Source: an uncultured Carboxylicivirga sp.
Lineage (GTDB): Bacteria > Bacteroidota > Bacteroidia > Bacteroidales > Marinilabiliaceae
DNA length: 64,000 nt
Direction of reading: 5' to 3'
NCBI GenBank assembly: GCA_947503525.1
Contig: CANNEA010000002.1
Coordinates: 682,001 to 746,000 of the forward strand
Shown here: positions 41,036 through 44,850 of the stretch, piece by piece
Position numbering within the stretch: position 1 is the stretch's first letter
Layout: each line of letters begins with the position of its first letter
The notes under the pieces: generated by a model
Database searches by the model: none
The model's input: only the letters and a program-made list of their open reading frames with translations
Told to the model about the DNA's origin: nothing
Translations under genes and position numbers: made by a program

Positions 41036-41537
41036 CTAATGAAGATTAAACATTGCATTGATTAGGTTTTAGGATATTTAGATGCCATTATTAGTAATCA
41101 TTTTCATACTATTAATGAAGTAATCATATTGTTTATATTCCAATGGTTAATACCCCAACTTTTGATCGTAACACATTTTTTTTCAACCCTTAGTTAGAAT
41201 CTACATTTAACCACCTAAATAGGTATCATTCCAGCCTAATAAAAAAATATTTGAGTATGTAATAGCAGAGTTGCTGACTTATTCGCCTGATATTAAACAC
41301 TAAAAAATCATATAAAGATGAAAATATTTAATTCCTAAAGCTTGATTTTTATAATTCTTATTAAGAATTTTGTTTAATCAAACAAACACCCTTTCGTTAT
41401 GCTTATACCTATCAGTATTGGCTATGCGCCATTTCAAACTTCACGTTCAATACTTAGCTATAAATTTTCGCGTGCGTCTTTTTTGCTTAAAGCCAGCGTG
41501 CATAAATGTGAAAGACCACTCAAATTCGTTTAGACGG

Positions 41538-41719
41538 CATTAATAATTATTAATGGTTCTCTTTATTGTCATGCAAGTCATTAATGCTTGTTAATGACTT
41601 GCCAATTGAAAAATGGACCATTAATGGATGTTAATGGTTTTAAAATTACTCAGGAAGCAAATTAATAAGCGTTAGTTCTCTTTCTTACTCAAAAGACAGC
41701 ACATTAATAGTTGTTATCG
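41538..41719. repeat. Phased array of five CATTAA-N6-TTAATG dyads
   Basis: Five 18-bp dyads begin at 41538, 41579, 41619, 41660 and 41702, with centre spacings of 41, 40, 41 and 42 bp. Sites 1-3 are perfect (CATTAA-N6-TTAATG). Site 1 is an 18-bp perfect palindrome. Site 2 extends to 12-bp perfect arms (41573-41584 / 41591-41602). Site 3 has 8-bp arms. Site 4 (AATTAA-N6-TTAGTT) and site 5 (CATTAA-N6-TTATCG) are degenerate. The spacers share pieces (GTTCTCTTT in units 1 and 4, TTACTCA in units 3 and 4), so the array may be a decayed 41-bp tandem repeat. The array ends 51 bases before the DUF6261-like ATG and fits a cooperative operator or protein-binding array. Confidence 0.75.
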
Positions 41720-41770: not shown

Positions 41771-42484
41771 ATGAATGAAATAGATAAAATAAGTTACAAT
41801 ACCCGTTCGACGGAATGCAACGACTTATGCGGATCAATTGCACATGTTGTTGAAGAATCGCCATTGAACGATCCGCATTTATCCGGCCTACTGTCAGAGA
41901 TAAAAGCGGGTAATGAAACTCTGCTGAGTTCCATTAAACAGGACAGAGCAGAGTCACACCTTGAGGAACTGGATCATCAACGTGATGATGTATACCGTTC
42001 CCTGCTCTATCTGACCAAAGGCTATGTGCACCATCCGGATACACAAATCCGCGAATCGGCTGAGCATGTAGATGAGGTCATTAACAAATATGGTTTTGAA
42101 TTGATCAGTGCTAGCTATTCGGCGGAGTCAGCGCTATTGGATTCCTTTTTGAAAGATATGGCCAGACCCGAATTAGCGCCTGCCATTGAGTTATTGCCAG
42201 GTATTAAAGACTTAAGAGAAAACCTGGGCGATAAGCAGAATGATTTTAAAAGTGCAGAGAGAGATTGGCTTAATGCACGTGCTAAAGAGCAAAGCTCTGT
42301 AAATGCCACCAAGGCTAAAAAAGACTTGCTTAAGATTGTAAACGATAAACTAATTGTGTACTTACGTGGTATGCTTAGGGTGCAGCCAGATCAGTACGCT
42401 AGTTTAGTATCGACAATTAACTTGCTTATCGAAACTAATAATGGTATCGTAAAGCGTCGGAGTCACCAAAAGGACCTTGAATAG
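41771..42484 (+). CDS. DUF6261-like family protein
   Basis: A 237-residue soluble, mainly helical protein with no signal peptide. The central section (DDVYRSLLYLTKGYVHHPDTQIRESAEHVDEVINKYG, seen here as VHHPDTQIRESAEHVDEVI plus a following aromatic/SAESALLDSFL segment) resembles the DUF6261 family of Bacteroidota as I recall it. The C-terminal third is basic and coiled-coil prone. Function of the family is unknown; members are often present in several copies per genome. The ATG at 41771 follows the palindrome array by 51 bases and a terminator closes the gene at 42517-42544, so it is a single-gene unit whose regulation likely depends on the array. Confidence 0.65.
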   Translation: MNEIDKISYNTRSTECNDLCGSIAHVVEESPLNDPHLSGLLSEIKAGNETLLSSIKQDRAESHLEELDHQRDDVYRSLLYLTKGYVHHPDTQIRESAEHVDEVINKYGFELISASYSAESALLDSFLKDMARPELAPAIELLPGIKDLRENLGDKQNDFKSAERDWLNARAKEQSSVNATKAKKDLLKIVNDKLIVYLRGMLRVQPDQYASLVSTINLLIETNNGIVKRRSHQKDLE

Positions 42485-42825
42485 TTGAGATACTTATAAT
42501 ACAGGATAAAGGAATGAAAAGCCGGCTGATAGCCGGTTTTTTTTCAAAACAAAGGTTCTAAAACTATAGCAAGTACTCACATCGTTGTCAAAATGGTATT
42601 AATCTGGATTTGATCTATCCCTTCAGGCAAGACTATCTCCTCAAGATGAGTATTGTGGGTCAAAATAAAATAACTGAATCTCACAATCGTTTGCAATCCG
42701 GAATCAAATCAACAAATATTGAGTATCACTCAGATTATCAATTCAATAAAACATTAACACTTGATAAACACAAGCCTTCTGCGTAATTTGCATAAGCAAG
42801 CAGGCAAAAAAATCACTATCGAGTT
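42485..42825. other. Intergenic region between the DUF6261-like gene and GH97 gene
   Basis: This 341-bp gap holds the terminator at 42517-42544 and, near the GH97 gene, TTG (42761-42763) followed 20 bases later by TAATTTG (42784-42790), a possible but imperfect promoter 36 bases before the ATG. Nothing else recognised. Confidence 0.5.
42517..42544 (+). terminator. Terminator of the DUF6261-like gene
   Basis: AAAAG-CCGGC (42517-42526) pairs with GCCGG-TTTTT (42532-42541) including one G-T pair, and ends in eight T. Confidence 0.85.
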
Positions 42826-44850
42826 ATGAAATATTTACAAAGCAGTATCAGCTTAAGTTTACTTTCCATTATCATTCTATTGGGTTCTTGCGGTCCTAAG
42901 CGTCAGGTATTACTTTCACCCGATTCTCATATTCAAGTGGTATTTGAGGTAGTAGACGGAGTACCAACATACGCTGTACATAAGGACAGTAAAGTGGTGA
43001 TCAAGCCTTCGCGATTGGGGTTTGAGCTGAAAGCATCAGGAAAACTCGATAGTCAGTTCAAGTTGCTGGGTGCAAATATGGAATCTGAAAATACAACATG
43101 GACAGCTCCATGGGGACCGGACAAAACGATCGTTAGTAATTTCAATCATTTAGGTATTCGATTGAGACATCAGAGTACTGGAATATTGATTGATATTGCA
43201 TTTCGGGCTTTTAACGACGGGATTGGTTTTCGTTATCAATTTCCTGAGCAGAATAATCTTGGCGAATTTGTGATTCTGGATGAGTTGACTGAATTTAGCT
43301 TGGCCGATAATCATCAGAGCTGGTGGATAGAAGCGGATTATGATTCGTATGAAAAGCTTTACCAATCCACTCTTTTATCTGAGGCCAAATGGGTAAATAC
43401 GCCAATCACAATGCGTGATAAAGATGGTTTGCACATTAGCATTCACGAGGCGGAACTGACCGATTACGCCGGCATGACACTTCAACAGCTTGATGACAGG
43501 CCAAATACCTTTGTAAGTGCTTTGGTTCCCTGGGCTGATGGTTCAAAAGTTAAAGGATCAACACCATTTATGACCCCTTGGCGCACCATACTCATTACAG
43601 ATAATGCAGCTCAATTAGTGGAATCCAATACCATTCTTAATCTTAATGAGCCCAATAAAATTGATGATACTTCGTGGATTGAACCAATGAAATACATGGG
43701 TATCTGGTGGGGCATGCATATAGGTACTGAAACATGGGTGGAAGGAGACAGACATGGTGCTACTACGGAAAATACGAAACGTTATATTGATTTTGCGTCC
43801 AAACACAATGTTGGTGGTTTGGTTGTGGAAGGATGGAATTCGGGTTGGGATAAATGGGGGGCTAAGGATGCTTTTGATCATTTAACTTCTGCATCGGATT
43901 ATGATTTGGAGGAAGTAGCAGCCTATGCGAAAGCCAATAATGTGGAGTTGATTATGCATCATGAAACTGGTGGAGATGCAGAAGGCTACGAATTATTGAT
44001 GGAACCGGCTTATAAACTCTGTCAGCAATTGGGTATAAAAGCTTTAAAGACGGGTTATGCGGGAGGTATTTATCCAAGAGGCGAACATCATCACGGACAA
44101 TATATGGTACGCCATTATCAAAAGGTGGTGGAAACAGCGGCTAAATATGGTATAATGATTAATGCACATGAGCCCATTAAAGCTACCGGTAAACGACGCA
44201 CCTGGCCAAATATGATGACGCGAGAAGGTGTTAGAGGCATGGAATGGAATGCCTGGAGCGATGGTAATCCGCCTTCACATACCCTAATAATTCCATTCAC
44301 ACGTATGCTTGGCGGTCCTGTGGATTATACGCCCGGCACTTTTGACGTGATGCTCAAGAACTTTGAAAAAGAACGTGTTGCCTGGAATGCCGATGATTTA
44401 AGCCAAACCAGAGTACATACTACGATTGCCAAACAATTGGCTTTGTCCGTAATTTTATACAGTCCTTTGCAGATGGCCAGTGACCTTGTTGATAATTATA
44501 TTGATCATCCTGCCTTTCAGTTTATAGATGATTTAAATGTTGATTTTGATGAAAGTAAGGTCTTAAATGGCGAGGTAGGTGAATACATTACTGTGGCCCG
44601 ACGGTCAGGTAAGGATTGGTTTGTAGGAAGTGCTACCAATGAAAAAGCACGTGACCTTGAAATCAAATTTGATTTTCTGGAAGAAGGACAAAGCTATGAA
44701 GTGAGTTATTATGCCGATGGGGCCAAAGCCCATTGGCTTACTAATCCTGACGATTATACTATTCTTAAAGCAAGCCTTCGTAAAGGTGATCAATGGACCT
44801 TGAAATTAGCACCAGGCGGAGGACAGGCAATTGTGATTAAAGAGAAATAA
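42826..44850 (+). CDS. Glycoside hydrolase family 97, inverting (SusB-like) type
   Basis: A 674-residue lipoprotein glycosidase; lipobox Cys22 (LLGSC). The N-terminal beta-sandwich and the catalytic barrel match GH97 alpha-glucosidase/alpha-galactosidase. The position of the nucleophile Asp in retaining members is not an Asp here (IKALKTGYAG, 404-413), as in inverting SusB. Glu380 (HHET), Glu449 (NAHE), Glu467 and Glu473 keep exactly the spacing of SusB Glu439, Glu508, Glu526 and Glu532 as I recall them, i.e. base, base/Ca ligand, Ca ligand and acid. So an alpha-glucosidase-type inverting, Ca2+-dependent enzyme acting in the periplasm or at the outer membrane is expected. No SusC/SusD pair is next to it. 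Confidence 0.92.
   Translation: MKYLQSSISLSLLSIIILLGSCGPKRQVLLSPDSHIQVVFEVVDGVPTYAVHKDSKVVIKPSRLGFELKASGKLDSQFKLLGANMESENTTWTAPWGPDKTIVSNFNHLGIRLRHQSTGILIDIAFRAFNDGIGFRYQFPEQNNLGEFVILDELTEFSLADNHQSWWIEADYDSYEKLYQSTLLSEAKWVNTPITMRDKDGLHISIHEAELTDYAGMTLQQLDDRPNTFVSALVPWADGSKVKGSTPFMTPWRTILITDNAAQLVESNTILNLNEPNKIDDTSWIEPMKYMGIWWGMHIGTETWVEGDRHGATTENTKRYIDFASKHNVGGLVVEGWNSGWDKWGAKDAFDHLTSASDYDLEEVAAYAKANNVELIMHHETGGDAEGYELLMEPAYKLCQQLGIKALKTGYAGGIYPRGEHHHGQYMVRHYQKVVETAAKYGIMINAHEPIKATGKRRTWPNMMTREGVRGMEWNAWSDGNPPSHTLIIPFTRMLGGPVDYTPGTFDVMLKNFEKERVAWNADDLSQTRVHTTIAKQLALSVILYSPLQMASDLVDNYIDHPAFQFIDDLNVDFDESKVLNGEVGEYITVARRSGKDWFVGSATNEKARDLEIKFDFLEEGQSYEVSYYADGAKAHWLTNPDDYTILKASLRKGDQWTLKLAPGGGQAIVIKEK

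Follow-up and report, generated by a model that had tools for sequence, protein, structure and literature searches.

Phased arrays of alternating dyads upstream of DUF6261 genes in Bacteroidota, predicted to be binding sites for the adjacent DUF6261 protein

Arrays of dyads held at a period of 41–42 bp are found upstream of genes encoding DUF6261 proteins, and at the DNA level the tie between array and gene family is close to certain. The array described here was met in a stretch of 64,000 nucleotides (hereafter the window) from an uncultured Carboxylicivirga sp. (GCA_947503525.1, contig CANNEA010000002.1, positions 682,001 to 746,000). With good confidence, the DUF6261 proteins are the predicted binders of these arrays, each array being a row of binding sites for the protein encoded alongside it. 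In its full form the reading that we favour, and hold to be likely from the sequence comparisons, is that DUF6261 proteins would bind the adjacent arrays as filaments on one face of the DNA and that the N-terminal tail of the protein would read the dyad termed A, each paralogue thus having its own DNA address, dispersed arrays included.

Phased arrays upstream of DUF6261 genes

The window array spans 41536..41719 (repeat cluster 41536–41716, the longest cluster of 40–43-bp repeats in the window) and lies upstream of a plus-strand gene (41771..42484) whose 237-aa product belongs to DUF6261 (PF19775, E 7.1e-19, 68.7 bits against a curated cut-off of 27). A preliminary description of this DNA had reported five CATTAA-N6-TTAATG dyads starting at 41538, 41579, 41619, 41660 and 41702, with spacings of 41, 40, 41 and 42 bp, and these positions are confirmed in the sequence. 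Pattern searches gave exact matches at the first three (41538..41555, CATTAATAATTATTAATG; 41579..41596; 41619..41636), and the remaining two are degenerate and in phase: the fourth, AATTAATAAGCGTTAGTT at 41660..41677, has three mismatches counted by eye and was placed by the chain of axes, and the fifth, at 41702..41719, has two. The 12-bp arms ascribed to one dyad were found at the second (41573–41584 and 41591–41602), and the suggested decay of a ~41-bp tandem repeat is likewise borne out. These five are A dyads; palindrome axis scoring finds the B dyads between them to be faint in this array. The same description had held that the signal would dissolve if the dyad were equally dense and out of phase elsewhere. 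By count alone the dyad is indeed usual, with 12 matches in the window at up to two mismatches against 11.2 (sd 3.5) in shuffled sequence; its clustering and phase are what is unusual, three of the 11 exact sites in the 6.56-Mb genome lying within 99 bp at this array and the other eight being isolated. No Rfam family matched at the array. After the DUF6261 gene, a GC-rich hairpin with a T run (42522..42545, plus strand) is a probable terminator, seen in the sequence and in the hairpin listing on the other strand only. The neighbouring genes comprise a GH97 gene, a TonB-type receptor and ORFs without a family, and the neighbours scanned included no cas genes. The GH97 gene (42826–44850) has its best matches at 66–74% identity in five relatives (L199–L203), and none of the five has a DUF6261 match in the fetched 1.5 kb upstream of GH97, indicating that the array and gene are not a syntenic module there.

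Arrays were called where at least 60 bp were covered by direct repeats at lags of 40–43 within 700 bp upstream of the gene. The locus set held 115 loci from relatives (seven own, 28 from the initial search and 80 fetched), from which further matches, mostly low-scoring ones, were left out, and 38 from named species; removal of nine duplicate upstream regions reduced these 153 loci to 144. L040, which has no start and lies at a contig edge, was left out, as were L169 (56 aa) from the structure alignment and two short-protein arrays (109 to 107) from the likeness test described below. An array precedes 109 of the 144 genes, a count that includes orthologues and hence loci that are not all independent, and the coverage test failed at the other 35. 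At control lags of 50–53 only four of the 144 loci pass, and among control genes (ORFs of at least 200 aa in 400 kb of the same genome) two of 195; three repeat places inspected in control DNA had the look of chance matches. Upstream of L053 and L068, repeats were seen at lags 50–53 (coverage 126 and 92 bp) instead of 41–42. The expectation that arrays should recur upstream of other DUF6261 genes is therefore upheld for the geometry and fails for the word, as CATTAA-N6-TTAATG precedes none of the other six DUF6261 genes of the source genome. Among its seven paralogues L016, L017, L018 and L020 pass, L019 falls just below the threshold (54 bp), and L021 and L022 fail, and the words are paralogue-specific, L020, for example, being preceded by words of the CTTGACTATTTAGTCAAG type and L019 by words of the CCATGGA type. 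An operator with a common word was ruled out, the seven genes having no one word in common.

Array hosts include Bacteroidia, Kordia and Aquimarina of the Flavobacteriia, and a Flammeovirgaceae MAG, and the geometry is identical in Bacteroidia and Kordia. A DUF6261 match was present in 26 of 60 relative genomes, with 0 to 21 matches per genome, and the family is rare in a sample of the phylum (six of 296 genomes). The eight new loci from that sample showed clear 41/42-bp repeats in four (L170, L174, L176, L177), weak ones in two (L171, L173) and none in two (L172, L175). One subgroup of short proteins (217–219 aa; L101, L112, L114, L117, L120, L128, L129, L130, from five genomes) lacks the array in all eight members and may be an ancestral or array-free branch. 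No DUF6261 relatives were found in viral contigs (alignment of the window type), in phage records (Kordia query) or in plasmid records with the window protein as query; the Kordia query gave one weak match of 22.8% identity in a Prevotella plasmid record.

The lag spectrum of 112 loci has 0.060 of windows at lag 41 and 0.052 at lag 42, and between lags 12 and 129 no lag outside 40–43, 80–86 and 120–126 exceeds 0.002 of windows. Distances between palindromes, taken with no assumed period, peak at 20.5 bp (32; control 0.7), 41 (41; 0.7), 42 (32; 1.0) and 61.5 (24; 2.3), from which it follows that the basic step in the family is ~20.5 bp, with A and B dyads taking turns. Arm pairing is high at 2–8 bp from each axis, the axes having been chosen for pairing, and low at 10–11 bp, and unit-to-unit conservation falls in the same blocks; together these indicate half-sites about every 10 bp on one helix face in alternating direction. 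A search for a pseudo-dyad at the midpoint from A to B gave none. In the pairing, mismatch, conservation and spacing analyses alike the axes were picked by palindrome score, which favours symmetry. For dyad pairs with diverged flanks (<45% identical) the spacing still peaks at 41 (15) and 42 (8) over a background of 1–3 per half-base bin, so the phase is maintained and is not merely the product of recent duplication. Most of the arrays measured have 4 to 14 A axes. On such a lattice, 7–8-bp half-sites of alternating orientation would form the A and B dyads, and DUF6261 protomers could line up along the one face as a cooperative filament. The phased protein–DNA array tied to DUF6261 that the preliminary description had envisaged is supported by these results.

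Arrays away from DUF6261 genes

In three genomes searched, exact matches to a single array word all lie in cis (2/2, 2/2 and 1/1), the word of L030, for instance, occurring only in its own array (2/2). When one or two mismatches are allowed, three copies of the L030 word, 41 bp apart, appear in another array of that genome, located between the convergent 3' ends of genes that we take to encode a purine nucleoside phosphorylase and a riboflavin synthase. Pattern searches revealed further array clusters, among the matches listed, in three relatives and seven Kordia genomes. Seventeen candidate places were fetched and with L216 make 18, of which 16 pass the coverage test and two (L248, L249) fail. 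L236 adjoins a DUF6261 gene and L243 and L245 end at a contig edge; the other 13 arrays have no DUF6261 match in the fetched stretch (tblastn with all collected proteins, E<1e-4). Arrays thus exist away from DUF6261 genes, in gaps between convergent, tandem and divergent genes alike. Of the 20 proteins scanned in the flanks, some belong to no family and the others are unrelated to one another (endonuclease III, MscS, TonB receptors, a type I restriction subunit), and a DUF1697 gene lies beside an orphan array in two Kordia species. Several Kordia orphan arrays mix A words, as in L240 with GGGGAAT, TTGGAAA, ACAAAAG and CCCGAAAG. Because two searched genomes with such arrays have just two DUF6261 genes each, some of the orphan words are without a known reader. 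The composite arrays had suggested a possible homodimer spanning the B axis; in a test on 14 of the 16 arrays (L236 and L246 omitted, L243 and L245 included) the value was 0.614 across A and 0.632 across B, against a null of 0.58 with 0.611 as the largest of 300; three arrays (L234, L235, L237) were set in the wrong phase in this test, and in the cis comparison set L031 was too short.

Several minor observations belong with these arrays. A similar AT-rich stretch around TTTTATTGCGAAT..GCAATAAAA lies just after the array at L156, L146, L237 and L240, which include cis and orphan Kordia arrays, which would fit an array that has a defined end and spreads whole. Genome G013 has several 41-bp arrays with TTCC-N8-GGAAA words on contigs 239, 288, 320, 436 and 563, some of which combine two or more words; contig 405 did not reach the threshold for an array, and contig 639 appears among the listed matches only. 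A TTACTGA-type microsatellite in Kordia algicida (L233:6061-6292) is unrelated to the arrays.

The alternative that best survives, and that overlaps with our reading in that DNA is bound, is that the array is an operator of an autorepressor only and that arrays elsewhere are relics of lost genes. In its favour are the cis location of the exact single-word matches and the position of the arrays upstream of the gene, their 3' edge lying at a median of 112 bp before the ATG. Against it stand the 13 gene-less arrays, distributed over gaps of all three kinds, the mixed words of some of them, and the array kept beside DUF1697 in two Kordia species, as relics need not be; on balance we consider an operator of this restricted kind unlikely to be the whole explanation. 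The term operator, used in the preliminary description, is accordingly at best a partial one, because similar arrays also sit away from DUF6261 genes, some of them between convergent genes. A canonical Bacteroidota promoter between array and gene, first seen at three loci, was withdrawn, since the motif TAnnTTTG occurs there in 11 of 109 loci and at the same number, 11, in shuffles. Repressors of the lambda or TetR type bind several dyads upstream of their own self-regulating gene, and in having several dyads upstream of a gene the present arrays resemble them; the arrays differ in being longer, in their strict 41–42-bp phase, in their two alternating words and in their dispersed copies. Replication iterons, tandem sites of about two turns beside the gene of a Rep protein, have a similar layout beside the gene of the putative binder. 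Differences are that the window protein matches no Rep family, DUF6261 being the only family above cut-off in its scan, and that a genome may have from 0 to 21 DUF6261 matches. The label iteron-like, in its replication sense, is unsupported, since no replication family was matched.

Under the reading that DUF6261 proteins bind the arrays, similar addresses elsewhere in the chromosome, some with several words in a row, would allow a DUF6261 protein to assemble both at its own locus, where it probably also regulates itself, and at distant sites, where it might organise, mark or link chromosomal regions. The chances that DUF6261 has a role beyond autoregulation appear evenly balanced, and chromosome organisation, tethering and perhaps defence are the forms that such a role might take. 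MatP, a helical protein acting at dispersed chromosomal matS sites, offers a parallel for an organising role; the matS sites are single, in contrast to DUF6261 with its arrays, its many paralogues with separate words and its cis array at the gene.

DNA half-sites, RNA hairpins and neighbouring cas genes

A second alternative is that the array is transcribed into a tandem-hairpin or guide RNA bound by DUF6261, as in TIGR-Tas or type III toxin–antitoxin systems. TIGR arrays (TasA/TasR/TasH) have two alternating words in a unit of ~34–42 nt (8–12-nt repeats, 9-nt spacers) and several units beside one gene, with words constant within a locus and different between loci; their 9-nt spacers are unique, they give rise to an RNA, and their protein has a Nop domain (PMC12045711). 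In look the DUF6261 family is similar, with tandem arrays beside a gene, with a period of 41–42 bp, two alternating words (B being faint in the window) that are fixed within and different between loci, and an adjoining all-helical protein. The differences from TIGR lie in the spacers, the protein and the mismatches. No spacer-like variable position is present in DUF6261 arrays, mean unit-to-unit identity in the 76 diverged arrays being 0.32–0.59 at every position; the window protein matches no Nop family, DUF6261 alone lying above cut-off, and its model no PDB structure at E<0.001; and the mismatches carry no sign of an RNA.

In the arms, G·T mismatches are about as frequent as A·C ones, with pooled counts, in which G·T is slightly above A·C, of 357:304 in A and 434:379 in B, counts by array of 52:46 and 50:47, and 322:314 and 262:276 at unpaired control positions. 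This is not RNA-like, since an RNA strand would tolerate G·U and not A·C. Among well-phased units, one-sided arm changes outnumber compensatory ones by 235 to 19 in A (12:1) and by 117 to 18 in B (6.5:1), in a count that required agreement with the array consensus, which limits the symmetry bias of axis choice and does not remove it. The same count yields a point for an RNA, in that compensatory changes make up 19 of 32 double changes in A and 18 of 31 in B, where one third is expected. For type III toxin–antitoxin systems, no ToxN or AbiF was present among the families listed for 38 members (best 25 of 79 for Pfam, 25 of 29 for NCBIfam, 9 of 9 for PADLOC), one member having a weak HEPN_AbiU2 match (E 0.0045). 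Taken as a whole, the mismatches and arm changes fit DNA half-sites better than RNA hairpins, which are disfavoured. The model has no structural match at E<0.001 and no Rfam family matches at the array; we regard a transcribed array as improbable.

In one lineage DUF6261 genes lie beside cas9, cas1 and cas2, which would suit a transcribed array. Among the 38 named loci, cas1 lies downstream of DUF6261 in five (L157, L158, L160, L161, L162), a count made after cas1 was noticed as a common neighbour and to which other loci do not contribute. cas2 was identified in L157 and L160, with homologous ORFs in L158, L161 and L162, and a gene with HNH and RuvC-III domains (cas9-type) precedes DUF6261 in L157 and L160. 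Ordinary CRISPR arrays with a period of 76–77 bp (66 once in L161), distinct from the 41/42-bp arrays, come next in L157, L160 and L161, and in L160, which has no 40–43-bp array, the DUF6261 frame overlaps the first possible cas1 start. A regular linkage of DUF6261 to cas genes was not found. cas1 and cas2, common to these five loci, are the one recurrent pair seen outside orthologous loci, and no neighbour gene is widely recurrent. The cas neighbourhood bears on the role of DUF6261 and not on binding, and it hints at a link to defence in this lineage, where a defence role for DUF6261 would be possible. A gene resembling the R subunit of type I restriction systems adjoins an orphan array (L233:677-3049), which with the cas loci may be a second hint towards defence genes.

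Array words and the DUF6261 protein

Array likeness follows protein identity (107 arrays; Mantel r 0.47, largest of 1000 permutations 0.10), also when pairs are restricted to those below 40% protein identity (r 0.31, largest permutation 0.10). Same-genome pairs have less similar arrays in five of nine identity bins and more similar ones in four, the largest excess falling in a bin of three pairs. The word thus tracks the adjacent protein more than the genome. The word TTTCGGG-N4-CCCGAAA is common to Anaerophaga, Kordia and one group of Bacteroidia, whose proteins are 33–37% identical, and the nearest relative of the window protein, L045 (56% identical), has cATTACCat/atGGTAATg versus cATTAATn/nTTAATg in the window.

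Two natural exchanges show word and tail changing jointly. The eight Kordia orthologues, six of which have a downstream gene in common, fall by eye into two groups of A half-sites, TTGGAAA/TCGGAAA-type (L145, L146, L149, L155) and CCCGAAAG-type (L150, L151, L154, L156; one arm variant TTCCGAA in L150), with a B word that, also judged by eye, is constant across both. Only columns 3, 5, 6 and 7 of their alignment separate the word groups (I/V, V, F, S versus K/N/R, T/M, L, D), and residues 1–9 contain six of the 111 variable ungapped columns. Of the 35 possible four-to-four splits of the set, the word split is the only one with at least three separating columns in residues 1–9; outside these residues, separating columns are at least as numerous in four other splits and equally numerous in one. 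L145 and L151 differ in 5.8% of body columns, yet their words and tails are different. On the body tree the word requires three changes (bootstrap 2–3) and none of the 200 bootstrap trees gets by with a single change; support is weak at most forks, and one origin of the word would be compatible with the well-supported branches. The leader, which separates array from gene, tracks the word in Kordia (0.63 for L145/L151 and 0.76 for L145/L149), and array, leader and tail may therefore have moved together in a single recombination tract. In the second case, L030 and L031 share 90% identity beyond the tail, their tails are 45% identical, and their half-sites are TTTGGAAA versus GCGGAAA-type, and L032, with a body 68% identical, has a tail like that of L030 (73%) and the L030 word. 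Here the leader follows the body and not the word (0.63 vs 0.48), and this is the one case that speaks, weakly, against a single recombination tract.

A scan of 66 pairs above 60% identity compared 233 windows of nine columns for how well their identity predicts array likeness once overall identity is allowed for; it placed residues 4–15 (partial correlation 0.42) and 111–120 (0.40) at the top, followed by 151–161 (0.34), over a median of 0.05, the pairs being non-independent. The first two segments still lead when Kordia is removed (30 pairs; 0.51 and 0.53). Over all pairs below 60% identity the loop ranks first (0.138; largest null 0.108, from 200 permutations of every second window), and the tail does not stand out. 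Loop type is associated with TGC words (p 2e-4); 40 of 81 other loops nonetheless have TGC words and some control words shift too, and a loop-to-TGC code is suggestive only. That the tail reads the A word appears somewhat probable from these comparisons.

The structural model of the window protein is all-helical (mean pLDDT 92.4, pTM 0.62), with the tail as a coil before helix 13–29 and a loop preceding helix 116–130. Residues 16–100 align weakly with 122–215 (hhalign probability 26%, P 7e-4), and DUF6261 is perhaps a tandem duplication of a helical unit; the offset of 106, extrapolated N-terminally from residue 16, would lay the tail on the loop. In each half, the short stretch leading into the first helix is proposed to read DNA: the tail would contact the A half-site, and the loop would contact the B half-site. 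In the window protein the proposed A reader corresponds to codons 1–12 (41771..41806, plus strand), as suggested by relatives, and the proposed B reader, the putative second-half counterpart of the tail, to codons 107–124 (42089..42142, plus strand), comprising the middle loop and the start of helix 116–130. It is from such reading by tail and loop that a separate DNA address for each paralogue would follow. A structure search with the model returned nothing at E<0.001 in PDB or among viral models, and a PDB-sequence profile match to BibA over 66 residues (E 7.5e-4) was taken as helical chance.

The acidity of DUF6261 proteins (median pI 5.3, n=151) and the missing solved-structure match at E<0.001 would suit a different arrangement, in which the arrays are occupied by some unlinked protein, with DUF6261 as its partner or mere neighbour. 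A single such protein would have to contend with several words per genome, with words that track the adjacent protein more than the genome, and with words that switch together with the DUF6261 tail, and no neighbour gene is widely recurrent; we give this arrangement little credence. Neutral tandem repeats that expand and decay, tied to DUF6261 by descent only, are disfavoured and most improbable: 19 of the 95 arrays measured are near-identical repeats and tandem slippage clearly takes place, but spacing and words outlast the likeness of their flanks, one word recurs in lineages at 33–37% protein identity, and Bacteroidia and Kordia have identical geometry.

Binding by DUF6261 itself would work like that of ParR on parC and of multi-operator regulators. 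ParR binds phased repeats upstream of its own gene as a cooperative one-face filament and is autoregulatory. The phased array upstream of an adjacent gene is present here too, with binding by DUF6261 putative. Differences from ParR/parC are that no gene for a filament-forming partner (ATPase or GTPase) occurs in the window or recurs in the flanks compared, that DUF6261 has no ribbon-helix-helix match, and that the arrays here are chromosomal, with dyads alternating every 20.5 bp and paralogue-specific words. In look, the closest system is TIGR-Tas. A protein on repeated sites is known as such, and neither the protein fold nor the combination of a cis array with dispersed arrays falls in any of the families tested. 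Searches of open-licence PMC papers (DUF6261, tandem palindromes, parS-like sites and iterons, cas9–cas1 accessories) found no description of these arrays, in agreement with what the preliminary description had stated.

These results give DUF6261, a family of unknown function with up to 21 matches per genome, a testable activity, and they point to a natural recognition code in which near-identical proteins differ at a few residues before helix 1 and their DNA words differ accordingly. Should binding be demonstrated, DUF6261 would be a DNA-reading scaffold with no solved-structure match at E<0.001 and a ready set of orthogonal protein–DNA pairs, and the chromosomal function of the dispersed and composite arrays would become a question in its own right. 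A more far-reaching and quite tentative extension is that DUF6261 is a DNA-addressing family with an exchangeable N-terminal segment, in which paralogues, or their past versions, would be seated in set order on composite arrays and an expandable set of orthogonal one-face filaments would link or label positions on the chromosome, among them a CRISPR-Cas locus in one lineage.

A separate element was noticed in a pattern search of the source genome. GTGTTACGAT-N14-TTAACC occurs in the window at 41145..41174 on the minus strand, and the form GTGTTACGAT-N14-16-TTAACC has six copies in the genome, as against none for the reversed control; the five outside the window are at G000:C2:12789, C2:535936, C2:1329838, C1:1021301 and C11:141631. 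Three of the six lie within ~650 bp upstream of DUF6261 genes, two others precede ORFs of 221 and 249 aa, and one stands before an ORF that we take to be LytTR-like from its look. The element is possibly a promoter or regulator site of a small regulon.
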